Assembly (NCBI GenBank): GCA_947306365.1
Contig: CAMZGD010000020.1
Location: 1 to 44,896 of the forward strand
From: an uncultured Bacteroidales bacterium
GTDB taxonomy: Bacteria; Bacteroidota; Bacteroidia; Bacteroidales; UBA932
DNA length: 44,896 nucleotides
Reading direction: 5' to 3'
Under the pieces are notes generated by a model. It had not been told where the DNA came from, did not search any database, and saw only the letters and a program-made list of their open reading frames with translations. The position numbers and the translations under genes are program-made. Positions 6,944-26,409 of the stretch are shown here, piece after piece (position 1 is the first letter of the stretch; each line of letters opens with the position of its first letter).

Positions 6944-6947
6944 ACTG

Positions 6948-8867: not shown

Positions 8868-8868
8868 C

Positions 8869-10215
8869 TCAGAACCGGGTGTAGATGAATGGATTGTTGG
8901 TGGCGCCGACCAGCAGGGCCGTGCTGATGCACAGCAGGGCGACCGCGAAGACGAGTTTCGAGACCGTCAGGACGCCGCCGGACAGGCGACTACTGCTCGC
9001 CAGGCGGGCCATCCAGCGGCCCAGCGGCAGACAGCAGGCCACCGCCGCGATCCAGAGCCAGAACCGGGAACGCAGCGCACTGCCGACGGTAAAGTCGGTC
9101 AGCGAAGCGGCATTTCCGAAGAGTATCCGGAAAAAGTCGGCCATCCGGCTGAAATCCACGAAATAGAAAATGCCCCACCCCAGGATGACGAGCAGCAGGC
9201 TGCCGGCGTGACGTACCACGGCAGGGACCTTCCAGCGCAGGACCGTGTATTTTTCCACCGCCACGATCATTCCGAAATAGAGGCCCCACACCACGAAATT
9301 CCAGCTGGCACCGTGCCAAAGGCCCGTCAGGAACCAGACGACCAGGATGTTCAGGAACTGGTGACGGCGGTTTCCGCCCATCGGGATATAGAGGTAATCG
9401 CGGAAGAAGCTGCCCAGCGAGATGTGCCAGCGACGCCAGAAATCCGTGATCGAGTCACAGCAGTACGGATGGTCGAAGTTTTCCTTGAAATGGAATCCCA
9501 GGCAGCGTCCGATGCCGATGGCCATGTCGGAATAGCCGGAAAAGTCGAAATAGATCTGCAGCGTGAAGGCCAGCAGGCCCACCCAGGCCCCCGCCGTCGA
9601 AAGCCCGGCCAGGTCGCCGGCCAGGAACTGGTCGGAAATCCCGGACAACTGGTTGGCGAGGATCACTTTCTTGCCCAGGCCGACCAGGAAGCGGAAACTG
9701 CCGTCAGCCACGTCGTCCAAGCCGACGTGCCGGTCGGAAATCTCCCGGGCGATCGTACCGTAGCGCACGATCGGGCCCGCGATCAGCTGCGGGAACATCG
9801 AGATGTAGAGCAGCAGGTCGCCGAAACGGCGCTGAGCCGGACTCTCCTTCCGGTAAACGTCAATCAGATAGGAGATCGACTGGAACGTGTAGAAACTGAT
9901 GCCGATGGGCAGCGAGAACACGCCCAGGTACTTGAATGCGCCCAGGATGGCGATGTTGCAGGTCAGTCCCGCCACCAGGAAGAACGTCCTTCCCTTCCCC
10001 TTGCGGTCGATGCCCCGGCCGAACAGCCAGTTCAGCAGCGCACAAAGGATGAGCAGGATGACGTAGACCGGTTCGCCCCACGCATAAAAGAGCAGCGAGA
10101 AAGCGACCAGCACGCCATTCTTCACCCGATTGCCTTCCGCCAGGCCCGCGAGCAGATAGCAGATCGCGAAGGCCGGCAGGAAGGCAAAGAGGAAGAAAAG
10201 GTCGGCAAATACCAT
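8869..10215 (-). CDS. AlgI-like MBOAT membrane O-acyltransferase
   Basis: A 448-residue polytopic membrane protein of the MBOAT family. It has the conserved region around residues 215-305: FDFSGYSDMAIG, DFWRRWHISLG, RDYLYIPMGGN and TGLWHGASWNF, where His301 is the expected catalytic residue and His264 is also conserved. Relatives such as AlgI and PatA pass acetyl groups across the membrane to a periplasmic partner that O-acetylates a polysaccharide or peptidoglycan. The adjacent DHHW protein is the natural partner. The ATG abuts the etfA stop codon with no gap, so this gene appears joined to the butyrate operon. Confidence 0.92.
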   Translation of the reverse strand: MVFADLFFLFAFLPAFAICYLLAGLAEGNRVKNGVLVAFSLLFYAWGEPVYVILLILCALLNWLFGRGIDRKGKGRTFFLVAGLTCNIAILGAFKYLGVFSLPIGISFYTFQSISYLIDVYRKESPAQRRFGDLLLYISMFPQLIAGPIVRYGTIAREISDRHVGLDDVADGSFRFLVGLGKKVILANQLSGISDQFLAGDLAGLSTAGAWVGLLAFTLQIYFDFSGYSDMAIGIGRCLGFHFKENFDHPYCCDSITDFWRRWHISLGSFFRDYLYIPMGGNRRHQFLNILVVWFLTGLWHGASWNFVVWGLYFGMIVAVEKYTVLRWKVPAVVRHAGSLLLVILGWGIFYFVDFSRMADFFRILFGNAASLTDFTVGSALRSRFWLWIAAVACCLPLGRWMARLASSSRLSGGVLTVSKLVFAVALLCISTALLVGATNNPFIYTRF

Positions 10216-11223
10216 TTAGTCGGCAAGATCCTTCTTCAGGCGCTCCGTGAGCAGCGGCACGACCTTGTTCAGGTCACACACGATGCCCAGGTCAGAGACG
10301 CTGAAGATCGGCGCGAACTTGTCCTTGTTGACGGCGATGATCGTCTCGGACTCCTCCATGCCGGCCAGGTGCTGGATGGCGCCGGAGATGCCCAGGGCGA
10401 AATAGACGGCCGGACGCACGGTCTTGCCGGTCTGCCCTACCTGACGGTCGTGCGGCATCACGCCGGCATCGACCATCGCGCGGGAAGACGACACCTCGCC
10501 GCCCAGGACCGTTGCCAGTTCCTGCAGCATCGCGAAGCCTTCCTTGCAGCCGACACCGCGGCCGCCAGACACCAGGATCTTGGCGTCAGCGATGTCGACC
10601 GCCGTCTTCTGTTCCTTCACCGTCTTGACGAGCTTGACCACGAACTTGCTTTCGTCGAACTTCGGCCGGAAATCGACGATCTCGGCCTTGCGTCCGAAGT
10701 CGGGAACCGCCTTCGGCATCACGCCGGGACGCACGGTGGACATCTGCGGACGGTGCTCGGGACACTTGATGGTGGCCATCAGGTTGCCGCCGAAAGCCGG
10801 ACGGGTCATTTCGAACTCGTGCGTTTCCTCGTTGATCGTCAGCTTGGTGCAGTCGGCCGTCAGGCCGGTTCCCAGGCGCGCCGCGATGCGTGGTGCCAGG
10901 TCGCGGCCGATGGTCGTGGCGCCATACATCAGGATCGAGGGCTTGAAGGCGTTCACCGCCTGGAAGACAGCCTGCGTGTACTGTTCGGTCACATAATCCT
11001 TGAGCAGCACGTCATCGATCACGATCACCTTGTCGGCGCCGTACGCCACGAGCGTCTGCGCCTTGTCGGCGATCTGGTAGCCCGCCAGGATGGCGACGAC
11101 CTTCTCGCCGGTAACGGCGGCCAGGTCGCGCGCCTTGCCGATCAGTTCCAGGGCGACCGGTTGGATCTCACCGTCCCGCTGTTCGGCAAATACATAGATA
11201 TCTTTATATTCAGAAAAATCCAT
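10216..11223 (-). CDS. etfA: Electron transfer flavoprotein alpha subunit
   Basis: A 335-residue EtfA. The C-terminal FAD domain is clear: [47 protein letters not shown] and [15 protein letters not shown]. With EtfB it forms the partner of butyryl-CoA dehydrogenase. In anaerobes such Bcd-Etf complexes bifurcate electrons from NADH to crotonyl-CoA and ferredoxin; bifurcation here is inferred from the bcd-etfB-etfA context. No ferredoxin domain is fused to it. It lies 19 bp after etfB. Confidence 0.95.
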
Positions 11224-11242
11224 AGCGTTACGTTTTAGACGG

Positions 11243-12028
11243 TTAGATGATGTGTTTCTCCTTCAGTTTGGCAACGATCAGCTCCACGGCCGCTTCCGCG
11301 TCCACTTCGTGGATCTGGCCGGGGGCTTTCAGTTCCTTGGTGAACGACTTGACGACCTTGGTCGGGGAGCCCTTGAGGCCGAGTTCGGTCTCGGGCACGT
11401 CGATCCGGTCGGCGCCCCAGACTTCCACTTCCTTCCCGTAGGCATCCACGATGCCGCCCACGCTCATATAGCGCGGCTTGACAGCCGACGCGAGGCAGGT
11501 AAGCAGCGCCTTGCCCTGGAATTCGAGGACCTGGTAGCCGTCTTCCGTTTCCTTGGTCACCGTGAACTTCTTCGCGGCTTCGTCGTATTCGAGGCCGGCG
11601 ACATACGAGATCTGCGGGATGCCCAGATGCTCGGAAATCTCCGGACCTACCTGCGCGGTGTCACCGTCGATGGCCTGTCGGCCGGCGATGATCAGGTCCC
11701 ACTCGAGCTTGCGCGCCACACCGGCAAGGGCCTTGGAGGTAGCCAGGGTGTCGGCGCCGCCGAGCTTGCGGTCGGTCAGCAGGATAGCGCGGTCGGCGCC
11801 CATCGCGAAGGCTTCGCGCAGGATGATCTCAGCCGCGGGGATGCCCATCGTAACGACAGTCACCTCGGCGCCGAAACGGTCCTTGAGCTGCAGTGCGAAT
11901 TCAAGACCGCCCTTGTCGTCCGGATTCATGATGGCGGGGACGCCTTCGCGGACCAGGGTCTTGGTCACCGGATCGATCTTGATCTCGGTGGTATCGGGAA
12001 CTTGCTTGATACAGACTAGAATTTTCAT
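11243..12028 (-). CDS. etfB: Electron transfer flavoprotein beta subunit
   Basis: A 261-residue EtfB, normal length. It begins MKILVCIKQVPDT and carries AGRQAIDGDTAQVGPE (about 115-130), a flavin-binding segment typical of the clostridial and Bacteroidota butyryl-CoA dehydrogenase-linked Etf group. It pairs with the following EtfA and transfers electrons with the acyl-CoA dehydrogenase encoded 12 bp upstream. Confidence 0.95.
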   Translation of the reverse strand: MKILVCIKQVPDTTEIKIDPVTKTLVREGVPAIMNPDDKGGLEFALQLKDRFGAEVTVVTMGIPAAEIILREAFAMGADRAILLTDRKLGGADTLATSKALAGVARKLEWDLIIAGRQAIDGDTAQVGPEISEHLGIPQISYVAGLEYDEAAKKFTVTKETEDGYQVLEFQGKALLTCLASAVKPRYMSVGGIVDAYGKEVEVWGADRIDVPETELGLKGSPTKVVKSFTKELKAPGQIHEVDAEAAVELIVAKLKEKHII

Positions 12029-12040
12029 CGTACGCTCCTC

Positions 12041-13204
12041 CTACTTGATTTTACCGAACAGTTTACCTGCAATGACCATACGCTGGACTTCAGACGTGCC
12101 CTCGTAGATCTCCGTGATCTTGGCGTCGCGCATCATCCGTTCCACCGGATACTCGCGGGTATAGCCGTAACCGCCGTGGAACTGCACGCACTTGGTGGTC
12201 ACCTCCATCGCGACTTCGGCGGCATAGAGTTTCGCCATCGCCGCGTCGGCGGAGAAATTGACGCGCGGATTGGCCACATGCTCGTCTTCCTTGAACGCTG
12301 CGCTGCGCACCAGCAGGCGCGCCGCCTCGATCTTGGTCTTGAGGTCGGCCATCTGGAACTGCGTGTTCTGGAACTTGGCGATCGCCTTGCCGAACTGCTT
12401 GCGCTCCTTGGTGTACTTGACGGTCTCGTCGAGGGCGCCCTGGGCGATGCCGAGGGCCTGCGAGGCGATGCCGATACGGCCGCCGTCGAGCGTCATCATC
12501 GCGATCTTGAAGCCCTCGCCCACCTTGCCGAGCAGGTTTTCCTTCGGAATGCGGCAGTTCGTGAAGATCAGTTCGGCCGTGGCGCTGCCGCGGATACCCA
12601 TCTTCAGTTCTTTCTTGCCCACGGCGAAGCCGGGCGTCGTCGCCTCCACGATGAAGGCCGAAATGCCCTTCGTGCCGAGCGACTTGTCGGTCATCGCGAT
12701 GACGATGTACACGTCGGCATGTCCGGCGTTGGTGATGAAGATCTTGTTGCCGTTGATCACCCATTCGTCCCCGACGGGCACGGCCGTCGTCTGCTGGCCG
12801 GCCGCATCCGTACCGGCGTTCGGCTCAGTGAGGCCGAAGGCGCCGATCCACTCGCCGGAGGCGAGCTTGGGGACATACTTCATCTTCTGCTCCTCCGTGC
12901 CGAACTGGAGGATCGGCGACATGCAGAGCGATGTGTGGGCGGAAACGACCACACCGGTCGTGGCGCAGCAGCGCGAAAGCTCTTCGACGGCGATGGAATA
13001 CATGATGTTGTCGCCGCCGGCCCCGCCGTACTGCTTCGGGACGGGAATGCCGAAGATGCCCAGACGGGCCATCTTTTCGACCGTTTCCTGCGGGAAGCGT
13101 TCCTGCTCGTCGATCTCGGCAGCCAGCGGCTTGACCTCCTTTTCGGCGAACTCGCGGATCATCTGGCGGAACAGTTCCTGGGTCTTATTGAGATTGAAAT
13201 CCAT
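12041..13204 (-). CDS. bcd: Short-chain acyl-CoA (butyryl-CoA) dehydrogenase
   Basis: A 387-residue acyl-CoA dehydrogenase of full length. It has the FAD-binding AFGLTEPNAGTDA (122-134) and FITNAGHADVY segments, the RKQFGKAIAKFQ region and YEGTSEVQR, in which Glu368 is the expected catalytic base. It reduces crotonyl-CoA to butyryl-CoA, the electron-accepting step of the pathway. The context with etfBA and kal supports butyryl-CoA specificity; sequence alone cannot exclude another short-chain substrate. Confidence 0.93.
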   Translation of the reverse strand: MDFNLNKTQELFRQMIREFAEKEVKPLAAEIDEQERFPQETVEKMARLGIFGIPVPKQYGGAGGDNIMYSIAVEELSRCCATTGVVVSAHTSLCMSPILQFGTEEQKMKYVPKLASGEWIGAFGLTEPNAGTDAAGQQTTAVPVGDEWVINGNKIFITNAGHADVYIVIAMTDKSLGTKGISAFIVEATTPGFAVGKKELKMGIRGSATAELIFTNCRIPKENLLGKVGEGFKIAMMTLDGGRIGIASQALGIAQGALDETVKYTKERKQFGKAIAKFQNTQFQMADLKTKIEAARLLVRSAAFKEDEHVANPRVNFSADAAMAKLYAAEVAMEVTTKCVQFHGGYGYTREYPVERMMRDAKITEIYEGTSEVQRMVIAGKLFGKIK

Positions 13205-13227
13205 ACTGAATGAACGGTTTTCTTCGA

Positions 13228-14064
13228 TTAATACTTGTAGAATCCCTCACCGGTCTTGCGGCCGAGCAGGCCGGCACGCACCATCTTGCGGAGCAGCGGA
13301 TGCGGACGGTATTTCGGATCGCCGAATTCCTTATACAGCACTTCCATAATAGCCAGGTTTACATCGTTTCCGATCAGGTCGGCCAGCGCCAGCGGGCCCA
13401 TCGGATGGTTGGCTCCAAGCATCATGCACTTGTCGATGTCTTCGGCGGTAGCGATGCCGTCGGCAAGGATGCCGACCGCCTCGTTGATCATCGGGATCAG
13501 GATGCGGTTCACCACGAAGCCGGGGGCTTCCTTCACCTCGACGGGCTGCTTGCCGATGGAGGCAGCCAGGTCGACGACGCACTTGCAAACCTCGTCGCTG
13601 GTCAGCTGGCCGCGGATCACCTCTACAAGCGCCATCCGGTCAGCCGGATTGAAGAAATGCATGCCGATGAACTGTGCCGGACGGCTGGTGCAGGCCGCAA
13701 TCTCGGTGATGCTCAGCGAGCTGCTGTTGGTGGCGAAGACGGTTTCAGGCTTGCAGATACCGTCCAGCAGCGTGAAGACATCTTTCTTGAGCTGCATATC
13801 CTCGACGGCAGCCTCGATGACGAGGTCGGCGTCAGCGAAAGTGGAATACTCCGTTGTGGTCGTGATGTTCGCCAGAATGGCATCCATCGCGTCCTGGGCG
13901 ATCTTGCCCTTTTCGACGAGCTTGCTGTAGCCCTTCGAAATGGAAGCCATAGCCTTGTCGAGGCTGGCTTGGGTACGGCTCTTCATGACGACGGGCATCT
14001 TGGCGGCAAAAGCCTTCACGATGCCTTTAGCCATCGTACCGGTTCCAATAACGCAAATTTTCAT
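13228..14064 (-). CDS. hbd: 3-hydroxybutyryl-CoA dehydrogenase
   Basis: A 278-residue NAD(P)-dependent dehydrogenase. The N-terminal Rossmann motif is [15 protein letters not shown], followed by [14 protein letters not shown] and [11 protein letters not shown], where the His is catalytic. The C-terminal domain has [18 protein letters not shown] and ends NPMGP-like plus [11 protein letters not shown]. It interconverts acetoacetyl-CoA and 3-hydroxybutyryl-CoA. This step is not needed for the core lysine route; it would connect the acetoacetyl-CoA made by AtoDA to crotonyl-CoA. Confidence 0.93.
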
Positions 14065-14086
14065 AGGGTTGATTATTTAATGTTTG

Positions 14087-14866
14087 TCATTCATTCTTGA
14101 AAACGGCGGGACGCTTCCCGAGGAAGGCGGCCATGCCCTCCTTCTGGTCGGCCGTCGCGAAGCACTTCGCGAAATACTGGTTCTCGAGGGCGAGCGATTC
14201 ATCCACGTCAAGATCGTAATTCTCGTTGATGCAGGCCTTTGCATAGCCCACTGCGATGGGAGCGTTCTTCAGGATGGCGTTGACGACGGCATCCACGGCC
14301 GGCATCAGCTCCTCCGGGGTCACCACGCTGTTTACGAGCCCGATGCGCAATGCCTCGGCGGCATCGATCATCCGTCCCGTGTAGATGAGTTCCTTGGCGA
14401 TTCCCTGCCCCACCAGCTTCGGAAGCCGGTACGTGCCGGAGAATCCGGGGATGATGCCAAGTCCCACCTCGGGCTGGCCAAAGCGCGCCTTCGCCGACGC
14501 GATGCGGATGTCACAGGCCATCGCCAGCTCGCAGCCGCCGCCCAGGGCGAAACCGTTGACAGCTGCGATTACCGGGAACGGCAGGTCCTCGATCTTCTTG
14601 AAGACCGCCGCGCCGCGTCGGCCGAAGGCCAGTCCTTCCTGCTCGGAAAGATGCGCCATCTCCGAGATGTCGGCGCCGGCCACGAACGCCTTGCCTTCTC
14701 CCGTGATCACCAGCACCCGCATGGTATCAGGGTCCAGCGCATCGACAAACGCGTCCAATTCGCCGAGAATCGTCGAATTGAGGGCATTCAGCGTGGAGGG
14801 CGACGAGATGGTCAGCACGACGACGCCCTCCCGGGGGGAATGCTGTTTCAGAAACTGGTATTCCAT
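14087..14866 (-). CDS. crt: Enoyl-CoA hydratase (crotonase)
   Basis: A 259-residue crotonase-fold enzyme. The oxyanion-hole segments and both catalytic acidic positions are present: AGADISEM, then NGFALGGGCELAMACD and FGQPEVGLGIIPGFSGT. It hydrates crotonyl-CoA to 3-hydroxybutyryl-CoA or runs in reverse. It lies between atoA (12 bp) and hbd (22 bp), so it probably works with Hbd to join acetoacetyl-CoA and crotonyl-CoA. Confidence 0.93.
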   Translation of the reverse strand: MEYQFLKQHSPREGVVVLTISSPSTLNALNSTILGELDAFVDALDPDTMRVLVITGEGKAFVAGADISEMAHLSEQEGLAFGRRGAAVFKKIEDLPFPVIAAVNGFALGGGCELAMACDIRIASAKARFGQPEVGLGIIPGFSGTYRLPKLVGQGIAKELIYTGRMIDAAEALRIGLVNSVVTPEELMPAVDAVVNAILKNAPIAVGYAKACINENYDLDVDESLALENQYFAKCFATADQKEGMAAFLGKRPAVFKNE

Positions 14867-14878
14867 CGTCTGCCTTCG

Positions 14879-15538
14879 TTACTGGGCCATCGGCTTGAGG
14901 TCCGGGGCAATGATGAGTATCGCCTGCGTGGCTTCCTGCACCTGTTCCACGGTGAATTCCGGATTGATCTCCCGGAGCACGAGGCCTTCGGGGGTCACGT
15001 CCATCACGCCCATCTCGGTGATGATCATGTTGACCTGATGCGCAGCCGTGAGCGGAAGGTTGCACTCCTTCATGATCTTGTGGTTGCCCTTCTGGGTATG
15101 TTCCATCGCCACGATCACGCGCTTGGCGCCGACGACGAGGTCCATCGCACCGCCCATGCCCGGCGTCAGCTTGCCCGGAATCATCCAGTTGGCCAGGTTG
15201 CCCTTCTCGTCCACCTGCATGGCGCCCAGGAACGTGCAGTCCACGTGACCGCCGCGGATGATCAGGAAAGAATCGGCCGAAGAGCAGGCATACGCACCCG
15301 GATACGCCGTGATGTAGGCGCCGCCGGCGTTGACGTAATCCTTGTCTTCCTTGCCGGGCTCCGGAGCCGGACCCATGCCGACCAGGCCGTTCTCGGACTG
15401 GAGCGTCACGTTCACGCCTTCGGGAAGGTAGTTTGGAATCGCGGTCGGAAGGCCGATGCCGAGGTTCACCACGTCGCCGTCCTTGAGTTCCAGGGCCGCA
15501 CGGCGCGCAATCGTTTCTCTGATTTGTGCTTTGTCCAT
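14879..15538 (-). CDS. atoA: Acetoacetate:butyryl-CoA CoA-transferase, subunit B
   Basis: A 219-residue family I CoA-transferase beta subunit. The catalytic Glu lies in [10 protein letters not shown] (Glu49), which forms the glutamyl-CoA intermediate. [23 protein letters not shown] is the usual following block. In the lysine pathway the enzyme passes CoA from butyryl-CoA to acetoacetate, giving butyrate and acetoacetyl-CoA. Its partner subunit atoD is the first gene of the same run about 8 kb upstream, an unusual separation. Confidence 0.92.
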
Positions 15539-15559
15539 ACTTGTAAGATTTTGATATTG

Positions 15560-16354
15560 TTATTTCTTGGTATTCATTCTCTTGACGAATTCTTGCGCAA
15601 CGAACGAAGCCACATCGTCGGCATACGTTCCAGCGCCGAACCCGGCGTCGTAACCCAGCTCCTTCGCGAGCTCGTGCGAGATGCGAGGACCACCGCACAC
15701 CACAATCAGCTTGTCGCGGAGGTTTTCCGCTTCCAACAGTTCGATCAGTTCCGTGAGGTTCTTGATGTGCACATCCTTCTGCGTGACCGTCTGCGACACA
15801 AGCAGGGCGTCGGCGTGGAGTTCGAGCGCTTTGGCAATGAATTCCTCGTTCGGCACCTGGCTGCCCATGTTATAGGCCTCGAACATGTCGTACCGTTCGA
15901 TGCCGTAGTGGCCCGCATAGCCTTTCATGTTCATGATGGCGTCAATGCCCACCGTATGGGCGTCGGTTCCCGTAGAGGCGCCCACCACGACCAGTTTCCG
16001 GCCGATGTTCTGCCGGATGTATTCGTCGGTCTCCTTCATTTCCATCACCGAAGATTCGACCTTCGGCACATAGATGGACGTGTAATCCACGGTATAGACG
16101 GTGCTTCCGTAGCAGTTGAAGAACGTGTAACCCGGGGTAAGCTCCTGATAGAACACCACCAGCGGGTTGTTGAAGCCCATCTCCTTGAGCAGCTGCTTGG
16201 CCGCTTCCACCGCCTCCGGGCCGCACGGGACGGGCAGCGTGAAGCTCAGCTGCACCTTCCCGTCGTTCATCGTATCCCCGTACGGTTTTACTTTCGTAAG
16301 GTCCAAGGTCTTGTCGAAATCCTTGGCATCCATTGAATAAAGTCCGCCACTCAT
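15560..16354 (-). CDS. kamE: Lysine 5,6-aminomutase beta subunit (cobalamin-binding)
   Basis: A 264-residue KamE. The cobalamin motif DxHxxG is at 131-136 (DAHTVG), so His133 is the lower cobalt ligand, and Lys144 in NMKGYAGHYG is the lysine that binds pyridoxal phosphate; both numbers match the Clostridium sticklandii enzyme when the first ATG is used. A Rossmann-like B12 domain follows (LLVSQTVTQKDVH, VVCGGPRIS). With KamD it moves the terminal amino group of beta-lysine to give 3,5-diaminohexanoate. It starts 2 bp after kamD. Confidence 0.96.
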   Translation of the reverse strand: MSGGLYSMDAKDFDKTLDLTKVKPYGDTMNDGKVQLSFTLPVPCGPEAVEAAKQLLKEMGFNNPLVVFYQELTPGYTFFNCYGSTVYTVDYTSIYVPKVESSVMEMKETDEYIRQNIGRKLVVVGASTGTDAHTVGIDAIMNMKGYAGHYGIERYDMFEAYNMGSQVPNEEFIAKALELHADALLVSQTVTQKDVHIKNLTELIELLEAENLRDKLIVVCGGPRISHELAKELGYDAGFGAGTYADDVASFVAQEFVKRMNTKK

Positions 16355-16356
16355 CG

Positions 16357-17913
16357 TTATCTCCTCCCTTTCATCAAATCAATAAACGGATTGGAATAAT
16401 TCGCTCCCTTGGGAACAACGCCGTCAAGGCCCTTGCCACCGTCCTTCGGACGCTTCACGTCGCCGAACTTGCCCTTCTCAAGGGCGTTGAAAAGCCCTTC
16501 CTTGACGAGTTCCTCGAGCAGCGCGACGGCATTGTCCAGCACCAGCGCGGCACGCTGGCGGATGATGCCGCCCTCCTTGAACTCCATCTCCTCGCCGATG
16601 TCCCGCATATTGTTGAAAATGTAGCGGGCATTCTCGATGGAAAGATAGCGGTCGCTCATGAAGGGCGTATGGATGGCCTCGGTCGGCATACCCAGCAGCT
16701 GGATGCCCTGATGGGTCCAGATGCCGATGATGTTGAACAGGGCGTCCTGGATATGGCCACGGAAGATGTTGCCGGTCATGAACTTGGTCGGCGGCATATA
16801 TTTCAGCGTGGCTTTCGGGAAGATCTCGCGCGTCATCTGGGCCTGCGCCAGTTCGTACAGGAAACCGTTGGTCAGCATCGGATCCATCTCGAAGGCGTGC
16901 CCCAGGCCCATCTGTTCCTCGGGCAGCCCGGCCAGCAGGGCCAGCTGCTCGTTGATGATGTCGGAAGCCAGCACCGTGTGGGCGGCCTCCACCGCGTCGG
17001 CGGTGGTCAGGTAGTTGTCCTCGCCCGTATTGATGATCACACCGGCGAAGCCGTTGATCACGCGCGAGAAGAACTGGTCCACCAGCGTACGCTGCATGTT
17101 GATGTCGCGGAACAGGATGCCGTAGAGCGCGTCGTTGAGCATCACGTCGAGGCCCTCGAAAGCGCCCATGATGGCGATTTCAGGCATGCACAGGCCCGAG
17201 CAGTAGTTGCACAGACGGATGTAGCGGCCCACCTCCTCGCCCACCTTGTCGAGGGCGGCGCGCATGATGCGGAAATTCTCCTGCGTGGCGAAGGTGCCGC
17301 CGAAGCCTTCGGTCGTAGCGCCATAGGGAACGTAATCGAGCAGCGACTGGCCCGTCGTACGGATGACCGCGATCACGTCGGCACCCTGCCTGGCGCCGGC
17401 CTCGGCCTGGACTACGTCTTCATAGATGTTGCCGGTGGCCACGATGATATAAAGGTATGGCTTGGGGCCTTCCCCCAGCGTTTTCAGATACGCCTCGCGC
17501 CGGCTGCGGCGTGCCCGTATCCGTTCGATCGAACCATTGATGACAGGTTGCAGGGCGGCTTCCGCTTTCTTTCTGTCGGCAATGCCGACTTTTGTCAGGT
17601 CGAGGGAACCATCGGCAACCGCCTCTGCGATTTCCTGCGGCGTCCTGCCCGTAGCGACCATGGCATTGCCGATGTAGAACATCACGCCCTGCCCCAGCAC
17701 GCCGGCCCCCTTGAGGGAGTCGACGACTACGTTCGGCAGCGGGACCTGATTCTCATCGACACCGTCGATGCCCAGCAGCCGGCAGATGGTACGCTCCACG
17801 GCCACGGTCGTGTACCCGTCGGCGAACGATTGCACGTCTTCCGCAATCTGTCGCGCCAGGAACCGCGCCCTGTCGACCTTCCGCTGGTCCAGTCCAAGTT
17901 TGCTCTTATTCAT
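16357..17913 (-). CDS. kamD: Lysine 5,6-aminomutase alpha subunit
   Basis: A 518-residue catalytic TIM-barrel subunit with the expected full length. It opens with GLDQRKVDRARFLARQIAEDV and contains VATGNIYEDVVQAEAGARQGADVIAVIRTTGQSLLDYVP-type segments (about 240-280) that hold the pyridoxal phosphate and adenosylcobalamin site. It acts on beta-lysine from KamA together with KamE. The start overlaps the kamC stop by 8 bp, a sign of coupled translation with the reactivase gene. Confidence 0.96.
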   Translation of the reverse strand: MNKSKLGLDQRKVDRARFLARQIAEDVQSFADGYTTVAVERTICRLLGIDGVDENQVPLPNVVVDSLKGAGVLGQGVMFYIGNAMVATGRTPQEIAEAVADGSLDLTKVGIADRKKAEAALQPVINGSIERIRARRSRREAYLKTLGEGPKPYLYIIVATGNIYEDVVQAEAGARQGADVIAVIRTTGQSLLDYVPYGATTEGFGGTFATQENFRIMRAALDKVGEEVGRYIRLCNYCSGLCMPEIAIMGAFEGLDVMLNDALYGILFRDINMQRTLVDQFFSRVINGFAGVIINTGEDNYLTTADAVEAAHTVLASDIINEQLALLAGLPEEQMGLGHAFEMDPMLTNGFLYELAQAQMTREIFPKATLKYMPPTKFMTGNIFRGHIQDALFNIIGIWTHQGIQLLGMPTEAIHTPFMSDRYLSIENARYIFNNMRDIGEEMEFKEGGIIRQRAALVLDNAVALLEELVKEGLFNALEKGKFGDVKRPKDGGKGLDGVVPKGANYSNPFIDLMKGRR

Positions 17914-19219
17914 ATTGTCGTTTCATTATAGTGTCTGCCAAATCAATCCAGCGCGGATCGATGCCGAGTTCCCGCGCGATGTTGAGTGCCTCGTGCGGCA
18001 CTTCGTGGCTCGTCGTCTTCACGAGCCTGTAATCCATGGTCCGGCCTTTCGTGCCCGGCAGCAGTCCCCTGACACGCCAGCACTGGCCGTCGTGCGCCAC
18101 CGTGTAATGCGTCGTCATGACCAGCGCCAGATTGGGCCGGTCCGCCAACCGTTCCAGCAGGGCCGCCACGAGCGCCGTCCCTTCGACGGGGTTGGTCGTA
18201 CGGGCGGGTTCATCCACCAGCAGCAGGACCCGGCCGCCCTTTTCCACGGCGGCCACGGCCTGGTCGATGCGCTGCATTTCCGCAGCGAAGGAAGAAAGGC
18301 CCGTCTTCTCGTTCTGCTCGTCACCGATGCAGAACCGGATATCGTCGAAAGGCGTCATCACAGCCGAGGCGGCCGGCAGGGCGAAACCGAACTGATACAG
18401 ATACTGCATCATGCACAGTGTCTTGAGCGCAACGGTCTTGCCGCCCATGTTGGCGCCGATTACGGTGGCCGGAACCCCGCGCCGGAACGAGAAGTCAACC
18501 GGCTGGAAATCGCGTCCCTTTGCCTTGAGGGCCGCCCGCACACCCGGATGGAACATCCCGGTAATCTCCGTCTCCTGTCCCGATGTCGGGATGGACAGTC
18601 CTTCCACGTTCATCTGGACGGCCAGGGCCAGGGAGATATCCAGTTCGGCCATTTCGCGAAGCGTCTGCAGCAATCCACGCGCATACGGCCGCAATTTGTC
18701 GCTGATGACTTTCTTCAGCCGGTCTTCTTCGACCGCCAGCTGTTCCTGAAGCCCGCCGTCGTCCGGATCCTGTTCCACGGCGGCGCGCAGACGCCGCAGC
18801 TCCACCGAATAGGAATCATAGAGGTAGAACGTGCCGATCCGCAGCCCGTCCGGGTCCAGGATCCCGATTACGGCATCCAGGTCCGTCCCCATCGCCAGCG
18901 ATTCGGCCAGCAGGGCCATATGCTTGATCTCGAAAAATTCAATCTCATCCAGGGTCGCTCCCTCCGCCAGGGAGGAAAGCGTTCCGGAGATATCGCGGAG
19001 TCCCTGCAGGCGGAAGCGCATGTCTTCCACACTGCGACGGTCGGTCACGACCAGGTCGAAGAACCTGCGCAAGGTGGCATACGCCGCATCGATCCTGCCG
19101 GAATCGGTCATCATTTCCCGATCCAGCAAGACCTTGCGTGCATATCCGCTCTGCAGGCCCAGTTCGTCGAACAGGCAGCGGATGCCACAGGGGCTCTCAA
19201 CGATTTCCTTAAATTTCAT
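17906..19219 (-). CDS. kamC: Lysine 5,6-aminomutase reactivase ATPase (MutS-like)
   Basis: A 437-residue protein with a MutS-family C-terminal ATPase. Walker A is GANMGGKT (255-262), a Ser-rich signature GLSSFAAEM follows (307-315), and Walker B is LLLVDEPAR (332-340). The N-terminal half resembles MutS core helices but there is no mismatch-binding domain. In lysine-fermenting bacteria this gene sits between kamA and kamDE, and its product is annotated as an ATPase that frees the aminomutase from inactive cobalamin; direct proof is limited. ATG 19219 was chosen because it overlaps kamB by only 11 bp and starts the conserved region. Confidence 0.88.
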   Translation of the reverse strand: MKFKEIVESPCGIRCLFDELGLQSGYARKVLLDREMMTDSGRIDAAYATLRRFFDLVVTDRRSVEDMRFRLQGLRDISGTLSSLAEGATLDEIEFFEIKHMALLAESLAMGTDLDAVIGILDPDGLRIGTFYLYDSYSVELRRLRAAVEQDPDDGGLQEQLAVEEDRLKKVISDKLRPYARGLLQTLREMAELDISLALAVQMNVEGLSIPTSGQETEITGMFHPGVRAALKAKGRDFQPVDFSFRRGVPATVIGANMGGKTVALKTLCMMQYLYQFGFALPAASAVMTPFDDIRFCIGDEQNEKTGLSSFAAEMQRIDQAVAAVEKGGRVLLLVDEPARTTNPVEGTALVAALLERLADRPNLALVMTTHYTVAHDGQCWRVRGLLPGTKGRTMDYRLVKTTSHEVPHEALNIARELGIDPRWIDLADTIMKRQYE

Positions 19220-20159
19220 AGTCGTTCTTAACAATATCATACACGGGCAGACCGATCCGCTGCGAAAGCTCCCGGCAGAGCGTGTCCGAATCCAGGACGA
19301 TGCCGTTGGGCGCCACGGGGTTGACACACACCGCTAGCAACTCGCTCTTCATCCGGACGGAAATCCTGCCGCCGCGCCGGACAAAGGCGCGATACAGTTC
19401 CTGCGAGCAGAACACCTTGGTGAAGTCTCCGACCACCAGTTCCGTCTCTTCCTCACCAAGTCCTTGACGTACCTTCTGCAACAGCCTGTCGGTCAGTGCG
19501 CCTTCGACCTCGATGACACGGTTTCCCTTCAAGTCGGCCGCGTCAAGCGAGGAGAACGAAGACACCCGTATCCCGGGTTCCGGCCCCACATACAGCGGGA
19601 GCCGGATCAATTCCACCACGAACGCCGTCTTGCCGACCAGTTCGCGGATGTTCGCCGAATACGCAGCGCCCGTCGACAGCACCATCGCCTCGCTCACGGC
19701 GGGCGACGCGGTACTCAGACGGGAAAGCGCGCCGTCGATCAGGATCAAGTCTATCCCAAAATCATTCAATGAACGCATCCATCGTTTCAGGGCCGCAGCG
19801 CCGGAAGGGCCGCTCAGCAGCACTTTTCCTTCCTGCAGGGCCTTGGCCGTCACCACGCGCCCGAGGGCCGTGTCCTCATCGCTCACCGCATACAGTTCGG
19901 AAAGGGGACGTTTCTGCCGGAAATGCTTTTCGCTGGTCGCAAAGAACATCCCCTCCCGTACTGTGATCTCGGGCTTGACGGTACCTGTCACCTGGTCGGT
20001 CGTTTCCCCGTCGATCCCGATCGAAGTCACCGCCACGTTGAACCAGCCGAGCGGCAACCGTTTGATGATGTAGTTGAGACACTCCGTCTTGCCGGCGTTC
20101 TTGGCAAGGCCGACGATCGACACGCTCTTATGTTTGAGTATCTCCCCTACGAAAGGCAT
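19209..20159 (-). CDS. kamB: Lysine 5,6-aminomutase reactivase subunit
   Basis: A 316-residue protein with a P-loop at the N-terminus (GLAKNAGKTE, residues 17-26) and a following GIDGE segment. The rest has no other family motif that I recognise. The gene lies between kamA and the MutS-like gene, the position of kamB in Fusobacterium, Porphyromonas and clostridial lysine clusters. The proposed role is to work with KamC in repair of the B12 enzyme. ATG overlaps the kamA stop as TAATG. Confidence 0.85.
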   Translation of the reverse strand: MPFVGEILKHKSVSIVGLAKNAGKTECLNYIIKRLPLGWFNVAVTSIGIDGETTDQVTGTVKPEITVREGMFFATSEKHFRQKRPLSELYAVSDEDTALGRVVTAKALQEGKVLLSGPSGAAALKRWMRSLNDFGIDLILIDGALSRLSTASPAVSEAMVLSTGAAYSANIRELVGKTAFVVELIRLPLYVGPEPGIRVSSFSSLDAADLKGNRVIEVEGALTDRLLQKVRQGLGEEETELVVGDFTKVFCSQELYRAFVRRGGRISVRMKSELLAVCVNPVAPNGIVLDSDTLCRELSQRIGLPVYDIVKNDYEI

Positions 20160-21403
20160 TACCTGCGTCTTTTGCTGCGCTCGACCCGTTCCAGGTAGGC
20201 CGGCTCGATCGCCATCAGCTGGCCTTCCAGCAGCCCGGCCACGCCCTCAAGCTTCTTCCTGCATTCCGGACAGTGGCATTCCTGATGATACTCCGCAGGT
20301 TCGGTATAGGTGGTGATCACGCCCTCGAAGTTGCGGAGGACCACCTTGCCCGGCGCCTGGGAGATCACATACTGCGGCATCACCGGCGTCTTGCCGCCTC
20401 CGCCCGGCGCATCCACCACGAACGTGGGAACGGCATAGCCGGAGGTGTGTCCCCGAAGCGCCTCGATGATCTCGATGCCCTTGGAAACCGGCGTCCGGAA
20501 ATGCTCCAGTCCCATCGACAGGTCGCACTGGTAGATGTAGTACGGGCGCACCCGCATCTTCACCAGCTCGTGGACGAGTTTCTTCATCACGTGGACGCAG
20601 TCGTTCACGCCGCGCAGCAGCACCGACTGGTTGCCCAGCGGAATGCCGGCGTCGGCCAGGCGGGCGCAGGCGGCCGCCGATTCGGCGGTCACTTCGTTCG
20701 GATGGTTGAAATGCGTGTTGAGCCAGATCGGATGATACTTCCTGAGCATGTTGCAGAGCTCAGGCGTGATGCGCTGCGGGCACACCACCGGCGTACGGCT
20801 GCCGATGCGGACAATCTCCACGTGGGGGATCTCGCGGAGCCGGCGGATGATGTCCTCCAGCCACGCGTCGCTCACCATCAGGGCGTCGCCGCCCGACAGG
20901 AGCACGTCGCGCACCTCGGGCGTGTTGCGGATGTATTCGATGGCCTTGTCGATGCGCTCGCGGGGGCTTTCATCGTCCTTCTGGCCGGCGAAGCGGCGGC
21001 GGGTGCAGTGGCGGCAGTACATCGAGCACATATCGGTGATCAGCAGCAGCACGCGGTCCGGGTAGCGGTGTGTCAGGCCCGGTGTCGGGCTGTCGGTGTC
21101 CTCGTGGAGCGGGTCGAGCAGGTCGGCGGCGGACTGGTGCGTCTCGGCGGCCGTCGGAATGCACTGACGGCGCACGGGATCGAACGGATCGTCCGGGTCG
21201 ATCAGGGAGATATAATAGGGCGTGATGGCCATCCGCAGGGTGGACAGGCATTTCTTCACGCCCTCCTCCTCTTCCGGCGTCAGCTTCACGTATTTCTTCA
21301 GCTCGTCCAGTGTCTCGATCCGGTTCTTGACCTGCCATTTCCAGTCGTTCCACTGGGCGTCGGTCACCTCCGGAAAAAGATCATTTCTACGGGAAACGTT
21401 CAT
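20159..21403 (-). CDS. kamA: Lysine 2,3-aminomutase
   Basis: A 414-residue radical-SAM enzyme. The iron-sulfur cluster motif is CSMYCRHC (Cys126, Cys130, Cys133). Lys338 in APGGGGKTP is the pyridoxal phosphate lysine, Asp294 and Asp331 match the substrate-binding pair of the Clostridium subterminale enzyme (shifted by one), and the C-terminal CHCPEC provides zinc ligands. It converts L-lysine to beta-lysine, the first step of the pathway. All key residues are present, which separates it from EpmB-type paralogs. Confidence 0.96.
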   Translation of the reverse strand: MNVSRRNDLFPEVTDAQWNDWKWQVKNRIETLDELKKYVKLTPEEEEGVKKCLSTLRMAITPYYISLIDPDDPFDPVRRQCIPTAAETHQSAADLLDPLHEDTDSPTPGLTHRYPDRVLLLITDMCSMYCRHCTRRRFAGQKDDESPRERIDKAIEYIRNTPEVRDVLLSGGDALMVSDAWLEDIIRRLREIPHVEIVRIGSRTPVVCPQRITPELCNMLRKYHPIWLNTHFNHPNEVTAESAAACARLADAGIPLGNQSVLLRGVNDCVHVMKKLVHELVKMRVRPYYIYQCDLSMGLEHFRTPVSKGIEIIEALRGHTSGYAVPTFVVDAPGGGGKTPVMPQYVISQAPGKVVLRNFEGVITTYTEPAEYHQECHCPECRKKLEGVAGLLEGQLMAIEPAYLERVERSKRRR

Positions 21404-21409
21404 GGTGCC

Positions 21410-22486
21410 TTATGCGTAAAGTTCCTCAAAGATCTTCCGGAGTTTCGGACATTCGCGCAGCTCCTGCAACGTGAACTCGGCGTGGCCCTTGGTATAGCCG
21501 TTGCCCATGATCATGTTCACGTCCGCACCGATGCCTTCCGCACCCAGGGAGGCCTTGGTGAAGCTGGTGGCCATCGAGAAGAAATACACGATGCCGTCGT
21601 CCTTCGTGCAGAGCACGGCCGTCATTTCCTGGTCGGGCACGTTCACGCAGTTGATGGTCACGTCGGCCATCTTGCCGCCGGTCAGTTTCTCGACGAGTTC
21701 ATAGACCTGCACGGGGGTCATGCCGGCCGCGCTTTCCACGACGTCGCAGAAGCCGAGGTCCTTGATGCGCTGGGTAGAACGGGGACTGTTCGCAATGCCG
21801 ATCACCTTGCCGGTCACGCCGACGCGCTTCTTCGCCTCATACGCGCAGAGCATGCCGCTCTTGCCGCCGGCTCCCAGAATGACGACCGTCTGGCCATACT
21901 GGCAGAGCTTCGCGGTCTGGGCGGGCGCGCCGGCCACGTCGAGTGCGGAAAGGGCGAGCTTCTCCGGCATGTCGGTCGGAATCTTCGCATAGATGCCGCT
22001 CTCGAAGAGGATGGCCTTGCCCTTGATGTCCACCTGGTCCACGTCGGGACGGATGGCGAGGATCTCGTCTATGCGCAGCGGGGTCAGCGAGAGGCTGACC
22101 AGCGTGGCGATGCGGTCGCCTTCCTTCAGGTCGATTTTTCCCTTGAGGGCGTCGCCGATCTTCTCGACCTTGCCGAGCAGCATGCCACCCGAACCCGTAC
22201 GGCGGTTGCGGTGCTTGCCCTGCAGTTCGACGTTGAGCAGCATCTCCTTCTTTACCTCTTCCATGATTCTCTCCTCGCTGGCACCTTCGCCGGCCTGCTG
22301 GCGGGCGTAGTTGTGGATGTCGGTGAACGACGCGGAGTCGATGTTGAGGGTCTGGACGTCGATCAGGATCTCGTTGTCCCAGATTTCGTCCATGTTGTTG
22401 TCGAGTTTGTTTGCCGGTTGCGGAAGGACACCCTTCGGTTCGATGACGCGGTGCGTTCCGTACTTGTTTCCGTGTTTCTGTGCCAT
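21410..22486 (-). CDS. kdd: L-erythro-3,5-diaminohexanoate dehydrogenase
   Basis: A 358-residue NAD(P)-dependent dehydrogenase. It opens with GTHRVIEPKGVLPQPA, a family-specific start, and has a Rossmann motif VILGAGGKSGMLCAYEAKK (about 190-208). Kdd oxidatively deaminates 3,5-diaminohexanoate to 3-keto-5-aminohexanoate. The 42-bp space before it is the largest in the lysine cluster and has no clear promoter. It is 6 bp before kamA. Confidence 0.94.
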   Translation of the reverse strand: MAQKHGNKYGTHRVIEPKGVLPQPANKLDNNMDEIWDNEILIDVQTLNIDSASFTDIHNYARQQAGEGASEERIMEEVKKEMLLNVELQGKHRNRRTGSGGMLLGKVEKIGDALKGKIDLKEGDRIATLVSLSLTPLRIDEILAIRPDVDQVDIKGKAILFESGIYAKIPTDMPEKLALSALDVAGAPAQTAKLCQYGQTVVILGAGGKSGMLCAYEAKKRVGVTGKVIGIANSPRSTQRIKDLGFCDVVESAAGMTPVQVYELVEKLTGGKMADVTINCVNVPDQEMTAVLCTKDDGIVYFFSMATSFTKASLGAEGIGADVNMIMGNGYTKGHAEFTLQELRECPKLRKIFEELYA

Positions 22487-22528
22487 ATTACGTTATAAAG
22501 TTTATTGTTTCCTTTTTTGGAGGGATTA

Positions 22529-23356
22529 TCATTTTTTAAGACCCAATATCTCGCGGGCTTCGTCGCTCGTGGCGACGGGACGGCCCAGTTCAGCGGCAAG
22601 GCGGACGACCTTGGCGACCAGTTCGCCGTTATTCCTGGCCAGGACGCCTTTCGAGAGATAGAGATTGTCCTCGAAACCGACGCGGACATTACCGCCCATG
22701 GCGATGGCCGCGGCGGCCATCGGGAATGCGTGACGGCCTACGCCGGTCACCGTCCAGGTCGAGCCGGCCGGAATGCCGTTCACCAGCCAGCAGAGGTTGG
22801 CGACGGTGGCAGGCGTGCACCCGGGGACGCCCAGCACGAAGTTGAACTGCATGGGAGCGCCGGGAGCCTGCCCCTTCCTGGCCATGTTGAGGATGGTGTC
22901 GAGGTGCCCCATCTCAAAGCATTCGTATTCGGGCTTGATGCCGCGTTCCATCATGCGTTTGCCGAAGGCGCGCATGGTCGGCATCGTGTTGTCGAAGATC
23001 TCGTCGCCGAAGTTGCAGGTACCGCAGTCGAGGGTGGCCATTTCGGGCAGCGGGTCGGTGTCGGTGGACTGGAGGCGTTCGTCGGGTGTCATGCCGACGG
23101 CTCCGCCGGTGGAAGGGATCAGGATGACATTGGGGCACACCTTCAGGATGGCCTCTTCACATTCCTGGAAACGACCCCGGTCCTGCGTGGGCGTGCCGTC
23201 GTCCCAGCGGACGTGCAGGTGGACGATCGCGGCGCCGGCGTCGACGGCCGACTTCGCTTCGCGGACGATCTCCTCCACGGTATAGGGCACGGCGGGATTC
23301 TGCTCCTTCGTGACTTCCGCGCCGCAGATGGCGGCGGTAATGATCAGCTTGTCCAT
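22529..23356 (-). CDS. kce: 3-keto-5-aminohexanoate cleavage enzyme (BKACE family)
   Basis: A 275-residue DUF849/BKACE protein. The zinc and substrate residues reported for Kce align well: Glu14 (CGAE), His46 and His48 (HLHVR) and Glu229 in RVGFEDN (230 in the reference enzyme). It reacts 3-keto-5-aminohexanoate with acetyl-CoA to give acetoacetate and 3-aminobutyryl-CoA. The ATG overlaps the kal stop as TAATG. Confidence 0.95.
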   Translation of the reverse strand: MDKLIITAAICGAEVTKEQNPAVPYTVEEIVREAKSAVDAGAAIVHLHVRWDDGTPTQDRGRFQECEEAILKVCPNVILIPSTGGAVGMTPDERLQSTDTDPLPEMATLDCGTCNFGDEIFDNTMPTMRAFGKRMMERGIKPEYECFEMGHLDTILNMARKGQAPGAPMQFNFVLGVPGCTPATVANLCWLVNGIPAGSTWTVTGVGRHAFPMAAAAIAMGGNVRVGFEDNLYLSKGVLARNNGELVAKVVRLAAELGRPVATSDEAREILGLKK

Positions 23357-23745
23357 TATTTACGCTGGCATTTCTTGGGGGTTACACACGTACCGCTGGC
23401 GCGGCATACCACGACCGGCTCCTCGAGCAGGTCGGCGGCGGAATCAGAAATGTCCGGACGCGGCGCGATGACCTTGCGGGCCTCGAACACCATCTTGCGG
23501 GAGGTATTGCCTTCCGAGACGATCTCGCCCGTGGCTTCGATGAAATCGCCCGCATAGACCGGGGCGATGAATTCGACCATGTCATAGGCCTTGAACAGGC
23601 CTTCGTCGCCGTCGCGGAGGATCAGCAGTTCGGTGGCGACGTCACCGAACAGATGCAGCATGTGCGCGCCGTCCACCAGGTTTCCGCCGTAATGTGCGTC
23701 CTTGGCGCTCATCCGGACGCGGATCATGGATTTGTATTCTGCCAT
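23356..23745 (-). CDS. kal: 3-aminobutyryl-CoA ammonia-lyase
   Basis: A 129-residue hotdog-fold protein of the size known for Kal. The central region [25 protein letters not shown] is characteristic. It removes ammonia from L-3-aminobutyryl-CoA to give crotonyl-CoA. Identification rests on its length, the hotdog features and its fixed place next to kce. Confidence 0.93.
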
Positions 23746-23760
23746 AGCCTGTACGGATCG

Positions 23761-24411
23761 TTACTGTTCGACATAGATATAGTCCACGAAGAGGGCGGGC
23801 GTATGCACGGCCTCCGGCTCGATCTCGCCCACCTTGACCAGTTTCTCGGCCTCCACGATCACCGTTTCGGCCGCCTGGGCCATCATCGGGTTGAAGTTCT
23901 TGGTCGTGCCGCGGTAGAACACGTTGCCCGACTCGTCCACGATGCTGCCGCCGATCAGCGCGAAATCGGCGCCGAGCGGTTTTTCGAGCAGATACTGCTT
24001 GCCGTCCACCGTAAGGATCTCCTTTCCTTCCTGGACCACGGTGCCCAGACCGGTCGGCGTCAGGATGCCGCCCAGGCCCGCACCCTTGGCACGGATGCGC
24101 TCGGCCAGCGTTCCCTGCGGAACCAGGTTCATCTTCAGGTCACCGTTGTTCATCTGCTCGATCGAAGCCTTGCTGCCTCCGATGTAAGAAGCATAGATTT
24201 CCTTTACCTGATGGTTTTCAATCAGCTTGCTCCAGCCCTTTCCGTCAAAGACCGTATCGTTGCAGATGACGGTCAGGTTCTTGACGCCGCTTTCGGCCAG
24301 TGCATCGACAATCTGTTTGGGGGCGCCCGTTCCCAGGAAGCCGCCGATCATAATCGTGGAGCCGTCCTTGATCATAGCGACAGCTTCTTTCAGCGTTATG
24401 TTCTTTTTCAT
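23761..24411 (-). CDS. atoD: Acetoacetate:butyryl-CoA CoA-transferase, subunit A
   Basis: A 216-residue family I CoA-transferase alpha subunit. The CoA-binding GGFLGTGAPKQIVDAL segment (23-38) and GGSIVDESGNVFYRGTTKNFNP are typical. Together with AtoA it moves CoA from butyryl-CoA to acetoacetate. It is the first gene of the lysine run; ATG 24411 was chosen because the upstream extension is poorly conserved and AT-rich. Confidence 0.93.
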   Translation of the reverse strand: MKKNITLKEAVAMIKDGSTIMIGGFLGTGAPKQIVDALAESGVKNLTVICNDTVFDGKGWSKLIENHQVKEIYASYIGGSKASIEQMNNGDLKMNLVPQGTLAERIRAKGAGLGGILTPTGLGTVVQEGKEILTVDGKQYLLEKPLGADFALIGGSIVDESGNVFYRGTTKNFNPMMAQAAETVIVEAEKLVKVGEIEPEAVHTPALFVDYIYVEQ

Positions 24412-24456: not shown

Positions 24457-24464
24457 CAAATTTA
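24457..24464 (-). promoter_or_regulatory. Probable -7 element for the lysine operon
   Basis: TAAATTTG on the minus strand (24464-24457) fits TAnnTTTG and lies 46 bp before the atoD start. A TTTG at the standard distance upstream is missing: the nearest copies are 14 and 25 bp away. The call is therefore tentative. No riboswitch-like fold was seen in the 128 bp between 24412 and 24539. Confidence 0.45.
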
Positions 24465-24490
24465 ATCATTTTTACAGACAAATAAAAGAC

Positions 24491-24514
24491 AAATCGGGCC
24501 GTCAGACCCGATTT
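24491..24514 (-). terminator. Probable terminator after the HX4D acyltransferase gene
   Basis: AAATCGGG (24491-24498) pairs with CCCGATTT (24507-24514) around an 8-base loop. On the minus strand it is followed by a T-rich stretch, and it lies 26 bp after the acyltransferase stop. This separates that gene from the lysine run. Confidence 0.65.
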
Positions 24515-24539
24515 ACGAACAAATGTGATGCGGGCGGAA

Positions 24540-26378: not shown

Positions 26379-26401
26379 GGCAATTATCCGTATTACTTCT
26401 G

Positions 26402-26409
26402 CAAATATA
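26402..26409 (-). promoter_or_regulatory. Possible -7 element for the membrane-protein gene
   Basis: TATATTTG on the minus strand lies 24 bp before ATG 26378, just past the queA stop. No TTTG is found at the expected distance upstream, so it could also be chance or the operon may be transcribed from the queA promoter. Confidence 0.4.

Follow-up and report, generated by a model that had tools for sequence, protein, structure and literature searches.

Lysine fermentation and its kam gene clusters have been described for Fusobacterium nucleatum, a Bacteroidetes contig from a digester, and Cloacamonas (PMC3149608; published accounts are cited here from excerpts). In the classical scheme of that account, thiolase splits acetoacetyl-coenzyme A (acetoacetyl-CoA), and lysine and 2 H2O are converted to butyrate, acetate and 2 NH3. 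Formation of butyrate from lysine was traced with 13C in Intestinimonas AF211, in which the lysine and acetyl-CoA routes operate side by side with a link at acetoacetyl-CoA and which co-ferments sugar and lysine from fructoselysine (PMC4697335). Here we describe a kam operon from an uncultured Bacteroidales bacterium of the lineage UBA932, carried on a stretch of 44,896 nucleotides (GenBank assembly GCA_947306365.1, contig CAMZGD010000020.1, positions 1 to 44,896; hereafter, the window). We consider it probable (about 0.7) that this is a thiolase-free version of the operon, in which crt-hbd replaces thiolase as the exit from acetoacetyl-CoA and would provide a second butyryl-CoA per lysine.

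Neither the pathway nor the cluster is new, and butyrate producers without thiolase are also on record (PMC5715108). In that survey thiolase was not required as a criterion, since some butyrate producers reach acetoacetyl-CoA in another way. Conversion of acetoacetate to butyrate via Ato is mentioned for a few bacteria (PMC5133246, PMC8198195), and bcd is reported to lie with pyruvate-pathway genes and to serve other pathways in trans (PMC5133246). Replacement of thiolase by crt-hbd or by phaJ/phaB is not mentioned in the excerpts of three butyrate gene surveys (PMC5715108, PMC5133246, PMC9403272) and a review (PMC8198195). We found no account of interchangeable exit cassettes in the literature searched; Vital 2014 and Kreimeyer 2007 may contain part of one.

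A lysine-to-butyrate gene run without thiolase

The run comprises 15 minus-strand open reading frames (ORFs), from 24411 (ATG of atoD) down to 10216 (stop of etfA), in the order atoD, kal, kce, kdd, kamA, kamB, kamC, kamD, kamE, atoA, crt, hbd, bcd, etfB, etfA. A preliminary description of the window had reported fifteen genes in one direction here, and all 15 ORFs were confirmed; its count is right only with kamB and kamC, which its gene list left unnamed. Profile scans and the ORF layout support its proposal that one Bacteroidales gene run carries a complete set of genes predicted to convert lysine to butyrate. The genes kamA, kamDE, kdd, kce, kal and atoDA, which mark a lysine fermentation cluster, occur together with the reactivase genes kamB and kamC, and 8 of the 15 genes score above the curated cut-off of an NCBIfam model for lysine fermentation or for a lysine aminomutase. 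Genes of the acetyl-CoA (pyruvate) pathway (hbd, crt and bcd-etfAB) are also present, but crt, bcd and etf do not reach the equivalog cut-offs.

KamA, KamDE, Kdd, Kce and AtoDA are shared with the scheme in PMC3149608, whose cluster figure also includes a MutS-family gene. Unlike that scheme, which ends in thiolase and acetate, the operon described here has crt-hbd apparently standing in for thiolase. It also encodes kal, whereas the digester contig and Cloacamonas use a transaminase and are without kal (PMC3149608). Intestinimonas AF211 differs in having its genes in several operons and a thiolase adjoining atoDA, and in producing near-equimolar butyrate and acetate from lysine (PMC4697335). 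In contrast to the account of bcd in PMC5133246, bcd-etf lies within the lysine run.

Thiolase was searched for genome-wide with TIGR01930 and hbd with NF004474, both over the curated cut-off, and the genes of each locus were mapped by tblastn. No TIGR01930 thiolase over cut-off was detected in the genome to which the window belongs (best score 29 bits vs 240.55), a metagenome-assembled genome (MAG) of 2.14 Mb that is 87% complete. The same search found none over cut-off in the other 18 congeners with hbd, including six of 92-98% completeness (G003, G007, G011, G026, G029, G036). Because neither this genome nor the congeners with hbd have a TIGR01930 match over cut-off, we treat the operon as a variant and not as the classical scheme.

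Exchange of gene cassettes between atoA and bcd

The position between atoA and bcd (hereafter, the slot) is filled in three ways among relatives: by crt-hbd, by a thiolase or by a phaJ/phaB-like pair. Thus crt and hbd, which the preliminary description regarded as added to the pathway, occupy the position of the relatives' thiolase in a genome without a detected thiolase. Within the genus, the slot contains crt-hbd in most congeners and thiolase in G005, G014, G017 and G020. Genome-wide, 19 of the 25 kam-positive genomes (37 genomes in all) have hbd only, four have thiolase only and none has both; in the two with neither (G015 and G023), the cluster is cut by contig ends. The slot pattern is not mere rearrangement, because these genome-wide searches show hbd without thiolase in 19/25 genomes and the reverse in 4/25. 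hbd is absent from all 12 congeners that lack kam genes (0/12), and thiolase was found in one of the 12 (G012, 51% complete). Across the order, of the 58 kam-positive genomes that are at least 90% complete, 26 have hbd alone, 22 have thiolase alone, 2 have both and 8 have neither. Among kam-negative genomes of other families, hbd over cut-off is rare (1/20).

Porphyromonas endodontalis (L104) and a Candidatus Odoribacter faecigallinarum MAG (L106) have the same 15 genes, and no thiolase was found in their genomes (G088, G090); they differ from the window in that crt-hbd follows etfA instead of lying between atoA and bcd. Butyricimonas, Labilibaculum, Marinifilum and Ancylomarina (L091, L102, L105, L108) have the same core and bcd-etfBA, with thiolase in the slot, and of these four genomes only Butyricimonas has hbd elsewhere (E 1e-60 or better, the threshold used for named genomes, in which the hbd search covered 24 of the 32 genomes searched for thiolase). 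We identified crt-hbd in three places relative to the core: in the slot and, in other families, after etfA (L104, L106 and six order-sample loci) or divergently oriented upstream of atoD (L034, L035, L037, L045). Thiolase was absent from the searches of the genomes of L034, L037, L045, L104 and L106, and from those of the order-sample crt-hbd loci.

A tree of kamD (79 rows, without the fragments G007, G010, G015 and G412) was used to examine kinship. The four thiolase genomes of the genus form one clade (SH-aLRT 99) nested among crt-hbd genomes. The minimum number of changes over the whole tree is 7 for thiolase and 9 for hbd.

A third cassette was identified in a Candidatus Merdivivens pullistercoris MAG (L085, G081), in which the genome search found neither thiolase nor hbd. 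Its slot (13027-14229) encodes a MaoC-type hydratase of 135 aa and a short-chain dehydrogenase/reductase (SDR) of 247 aa, a pair that could take acetoacetyl-CoA via the (R)-isomer to crotonyl-CoA. The SDR scored 280 bits against 302 for acetoacetyl-CoA reductase and 297.8 against 297.75 for FabG, and the MaoC-type protein is below every listed cut-off. The phaJ/phaB-like assignment is based on the position in the slot, because family models do not separate the SDR from FabG. A search with this SDR recovered 70-74% identical proteins in 7 of the 8 order-sample genomes with neither thiolase nor hbd, over a background of 38-45%, and each of the seven adjoins a phaJ-like gene and atoA. The concern that these eight genomes contradict the idea of an exit is thus answered in 7/8, and G181 remains without one. 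In G015 and G023 the search gave only SDRs of 43-45% identity, and both were kept in the class with neither gene. Thiolase and the phaJ/phaB-like pair occur together in four loci (L156, L170, L178, L199).

In six genomes of one genus (f78 g81; L154, L167, L175, L184, L193, L200), kamD has no adjoining kamE. The pathway is dispersed in these six, with phaJ/phaB-like genes on other contigs, beside atoA and etfA. In L154, an ORF judged by eye to be transporter-like precedes kamD.

Distribution and mosaic history of the operon

The preliminary description stressed that bcd-etf, crt and hbd share one unbroken run. This emphasis is unwarranted, because the same gene order recurs among the best named loci, in the genus and across the order. 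When all genes were required to lie on the same strand with gaps of at most 400 bp, the exact 15-gene order was found in 19/80 named loci (the best 80 of at least 588 kamD relatives), 13/21 congener loci and 4/59 loci of the order-wide sample. The comparison of kam loci across Bacteroidales that the preliminary description had proposed as a check thus identifies the 15-gene run as an ordinary type. These three sets overlap, and in many of the non-matching loci the cluster is split or truncated at a contig end. The genus set of 21 leaves out four short pieces (L144-L147). L191 and L192 are two pieces of one genome. Named and order-sample genomes include duplicates that share coordinates (G087/G236, G091/G427, G077/G419), and the sets were not summed.

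The nearest named kamD loci among the matches listed are those of Bacteroidales bacterium Bact_11 (96% amino acid identity) and Bact_13 (95%), with RGIG2620 from goat omasum (94%) and Candidatus Cacconaster equi (85%) also listed. Cacconaster is placed by NCBI in Bacteroidales incertae sedis. These matches suggest that the window comes from an uncultured gut genus of Bacteroidales near Bact_11. Occurrence of kamD is patchy: it was found in 25/37 genomes of the genus and in 58 of the 384 Bacteroidales genomes that are at least 90% complete.

The operon seems to be a mosaic, parts of which, hbd included, appear from sequence comparison to move between lineages gene by gene. In a DNA comparison of ten loci, chosen after protein identities were seen, kce, kdd and hbd share 82-84% identity with the other-family loci L047 and L066, vs 76, 78 and 69% with the congener G002. 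The reverse holds for atoD, kal and kamB (78, 81 and 70% to G002 vs 67, 72-75 and 62% to L047/L066), and kamC is about equally similar to both. A single origin within the genus was rejected by the approximately unbiased test for hbd (p 1.8e-6) and kdd (p 8.5e-5).

Proposed pathway and alternatives

Gene content, gene order, the exchange of cassettes among relatives and the lack of a detectable thiolase were observed directly. The enzyme activities and fluxes of the following scheme are all predicted from these genes. Kal would make crotonyl-CoA, and Bcd-EtfAB would reduce it to butyryl-CoA. AtoDA would then exchange the CoA once per lysine, releasing butyrate and forming acetoacetyl-CoA. Hbd and Crt would reduce acetoacetyl-CoA to crotonyl-CoA, from which the same Bcd-EtfAB would yield a second butyryl-CoA. 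The net reaction would be lysine + acetyl unit + 4[H] -> 2 butyrate + 2 NH3. Lysine would need acetyl-CoA and an electron donor, because the second butyrate consumes an acetyl unit and 4[H]; for each lysine, one acetyl-CoA and two pairs of electrons would have to come from another substrate such as sugar, and glucose would cover both needs exactly. The equation glucose + 2 lysine + 2 H2O -> 4 butyrate + 2 CO2 + 4 NH3 balances by hand for atoms, electrons and acetyl-CoA. The genome encodes rnfC and two PF02550 CoA-transferases, which fits the needs of a bifurcating Bcd-Etf and of a butyryl-CoA:acetate step.

More tentatively, and with real doubt, we suggest that the position after atoA may act as a metabolic switch, refilled repeatedly in Bacteroidales lineages with thiolase, crt-hbd or an unrelated phaJ/phaB pair. 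Through such a switch, lysine would go from being fermentable by itself to accepting electrons from the fermentation of sugar. The former mode would give butyrate, acetate and ATP; the latter would give two butyrates per lysine, with two Bcd-Etf turns feeding Rnf.

Several results weigh against replacement of thiolase by crt-hbd. Absolute exclusion between thiolase and hbd had to be dropped, as both occur in G270 and G334 (2/58) and in the named genomes G080, G082 (Butyricimonas) and G085. Weaker hbd relatives below cut-off (about 264-278 bits, longer proteins) are present in 8/24 order-sample thiolase genomes (G041, G055, G147, G185, G193, G236, G356, G391), and if these reduce acetoacetyl-CoA, the number with both would rise to 10/58. 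The Fisher tests (1.2e-3 for the genus, 1.9e-7 for the order sample) treat kin as independent. On the kamD tree, independent pairs differing in hbd number 6 when well supported and 9 over all branches; in the 6 pairs, thiolase differs on average in the opposite direction in 2.7, in the same direction in 0.0 and not at all in 3.3. The kinship-corrected sign test is in the expected direction and not significant (median p 0.25). No thiolase, hbd or close phaB-like gene was found in G181 (99% complete) or G078, and the phaB-like search covered 12 genomes. The genome of the window is itself an incomplete MAG (87%), and acetoacetate could alternatively leave by decarboxylation or export. To our mind, the finding of three different gene sets for an exit from acetoacetyl-CoA in the same slot is a stronger, qualitative argument than the statistics.

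An ordinary lysine operon could also lie beside an acetyl-CoA (pyruvate) pathway, with crt-hbd-bcd-etf serving carbohydrate-derived acetyl-CoA and simply sharing the locus. These are indeed the later genes of that pathway, which has been assigned to Porphyromonas and Odoribacter (PMC5133246). However, it begins with thiolase, and none over cut-off was found in the 19 hbd-containing genomes of the genus (that of the window included), in P. endodontalis or in the Odoribacter MAG. The absence of hbd from the kam-negative congeners is also contrary to simple co-location, which we regard as unlikely.

It is still less probable that a thiolase is present and was missed, either in an unassembled part of the genome or as a member of an unrecognised family. 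The incompleteness of the genome allows for this, and G181 and G078, in which no exit was seen, indicate that exits can be missed. Yet the same search detects thiolase in 22/54 kam-positive relatives and in the slot of four congeners, and the six congeners with hbd of 92-98% completeness are also without it. Finally, Crt and Hbd might run oxidatively, from crotonyl-CoA to acetoacetyl-CoA, for energy, as these enzymes are generally reversible. We consider this very improbable, since acetoacetyl-CoA would have no onward route that we could see when thiolase is absent, and Bcd-EtfAB is encoded in the same run. Replacement of thiolase by crt-hbd remains the reading that we prefer.

Gene assignments, operon limits and flanking genes

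Coordinates and scores are given in Table 1. Successive genes are separated by +15, -1, +42, +6, -1, -11, -8, +2, +21, +12, +22, +23, +12 and +19 bp. The start of atoD was taken as ATG 24411, and its scan was run from TTG 24459. The kamC scans (NF052383, PF00488) were run from GTG 19327; its start is more plausibly ATG 19219, because GTG 19327 would overlap kamB by 119 bp. The KamA and KamE motifs listed are the radical SAM and B12-binding motifs, respectively. A search of the genome with Pfam OAM_alpha (PF16552) found no match, and none in controls either, and was uninformative; NF052384 was used instead.

AtoD and AtoA both pass 3-oxoacid CoA-transferase subunit subfamily models. Crt is below the cut-off of every one of the 25 models listed out of 73. 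Its nearest solved relative is a short-chain enoyl-CoA hydratase (5z7r), and the alignment keeps GGGCE and GQPEVG, which we take to be the sites of the catalytic glutamates. Hbd aligns over its full length to 6aa8. Bcd, EtfB and EtfA score strongly yet fall below all listed NCBIfam equivalog cut-offs. In a check for electron bifurcation, acryloyl-CoA reductase models of NCBIfam scored high, below cut-off, and the top matches were chains of 5ol2 and 6fah. We take these two to be bifurcating complexes, 5ol2 being the Bcd-Etf complex of C. difficile.

Table 1. Predicted genes of the run and candidate regulatory elements, with coordinates in the window.
Feature	Assignment	Coordinates	Strand	Evidence
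atoD	acetoacetate/butyryl-CoA CoA-transferase subunit A	23761..24411	-	TIGR02429, 233 bits vs cut-off 128.5
kal		23356..23745	-	NF052388, 194 bits vs cut-off 160
kce		22529..23356	-	NF052387, 408 bits vs cut-off 382
kdd	3,5-diaminohexanoate dehydrogenase	21410..22486	-	NF052381, 242 bits vs cut-off 200
kamA	lysine 2,3-aminomutase	20159..21403	-	TIGR03820, 621 bits vs cut-off 525; motif CSMYCRHC
kamB	lysine 5,6-aminomutase reactivase subunit	19209..20159	-	NF052386, 302 bits vs cut-off 210
kamC	MutS-like reactivase ATPase	17906..19219	-	NF052383, 332 bits vs cut-off 300; PF00488
kamD	lysine 5,6-aminomutase alpha	16357..17913	-	NF052384, 919 bits vs cut-off 600
kamE	lysine 5,6-aminomutase beta	15560..16354	-	NF052385, 412 bits vs cut-off 280; motif DAHTVG
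atoA	CoA-transferase subunit B	14879..15538	-	TIGR02428, over cut-off
crt	crotonase, first gene of exit cassette	14087..14866	-	NF004475, 341 bits vs cut-off 394 (not reached)
hbd	3-hydroxybutyryl-CoA dehydrogenase, second gene of exit cassette	13228..14064	-	NF004474, 413 bits vs 408
bcd	butyryl-CoA dehydrogenase	12041..13204	-	best PDB match 5ol2_C, E 2.8e-173
etfB		11243..12028	-	best PDB match 5ol2_B
etfA		10216..11223	-	best PDB matches 6fah_A, then 5ol2_A
Terminator-like hairpin	between upstream plsC-like gene and atoD	24489..24516	-	12 pairs
Promoter-like TTTG...TAnnTTTG	before atoD	24457..24493	-	1 of 5 window matches, 0.26 expected

The 128-bp gap in front of atoD holds a 12-pair hairpin and a TTTG/TAnnTTTG element. 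We take the Bacteroidota -33/-7 promoter consensus to have a spacing of 19-21, and the element, with a spacing of 14 or 25, is a weak match. A 5' limit of the operon before atoD is only suggested, because the promoter-like spacing is off and terminator-like sites in the region occur at chance number (15 found vs 15.7 expected). Sigma-70-like sites are likewise at chance number. The transcript may be longer than the 15 genes and run into an MBOAT gene, which starts on the base directly after the etfA stop.

The genes after etfA (5765-10215) encode this MBOAT acyltransferase and then a DHHW protein of 639 aa, which carries an M15 peptidase domain at its C terminus; the gaps are 0 and 1 bp. The same two genes come after etfA in 10 of the congener loci retrieved, and in others they do not occur within the retrieved stretch. 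A CobW/ZigA-like GTPase gene comes next, overlapping the DHHW gene by 11 bp, and a protein with two BACON-domain stretches and no NCBIfam match is encoded at 4299-5780. Upstream of the operon (24540-26498) are two genes without a Pfam match, for proteins of 372 and 279 aa, the former faintly resembling a glycerol-3-phosphate acyltransferase (E 3.4e-4).

Implications for butyrate production by Bacteroidales

Gut surveys read crt-hbd-bcd genes as an indication that butyrate is made from carbohydrate. If crt-hbd replaces thiolase as proposed, such genes in this genus, in P. endodontalis, in the Odoribacter MAG and in many uncultured Bacteroidales would belong to lysine use. Butyrate would be expected, accompanied by little acetate, and how much of it is made would depend on the simultaneous presence of protein and sugar. 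The cassettes make a testable prediction from genome to product, and the set includes cultured organisms with thiolase only (Marinifilum, Ancylomarina, Labilibaculum). The findings suggest that the bacterium of the window uses lysine to dispose of electrons, forming extra butyrate instead of acetate.

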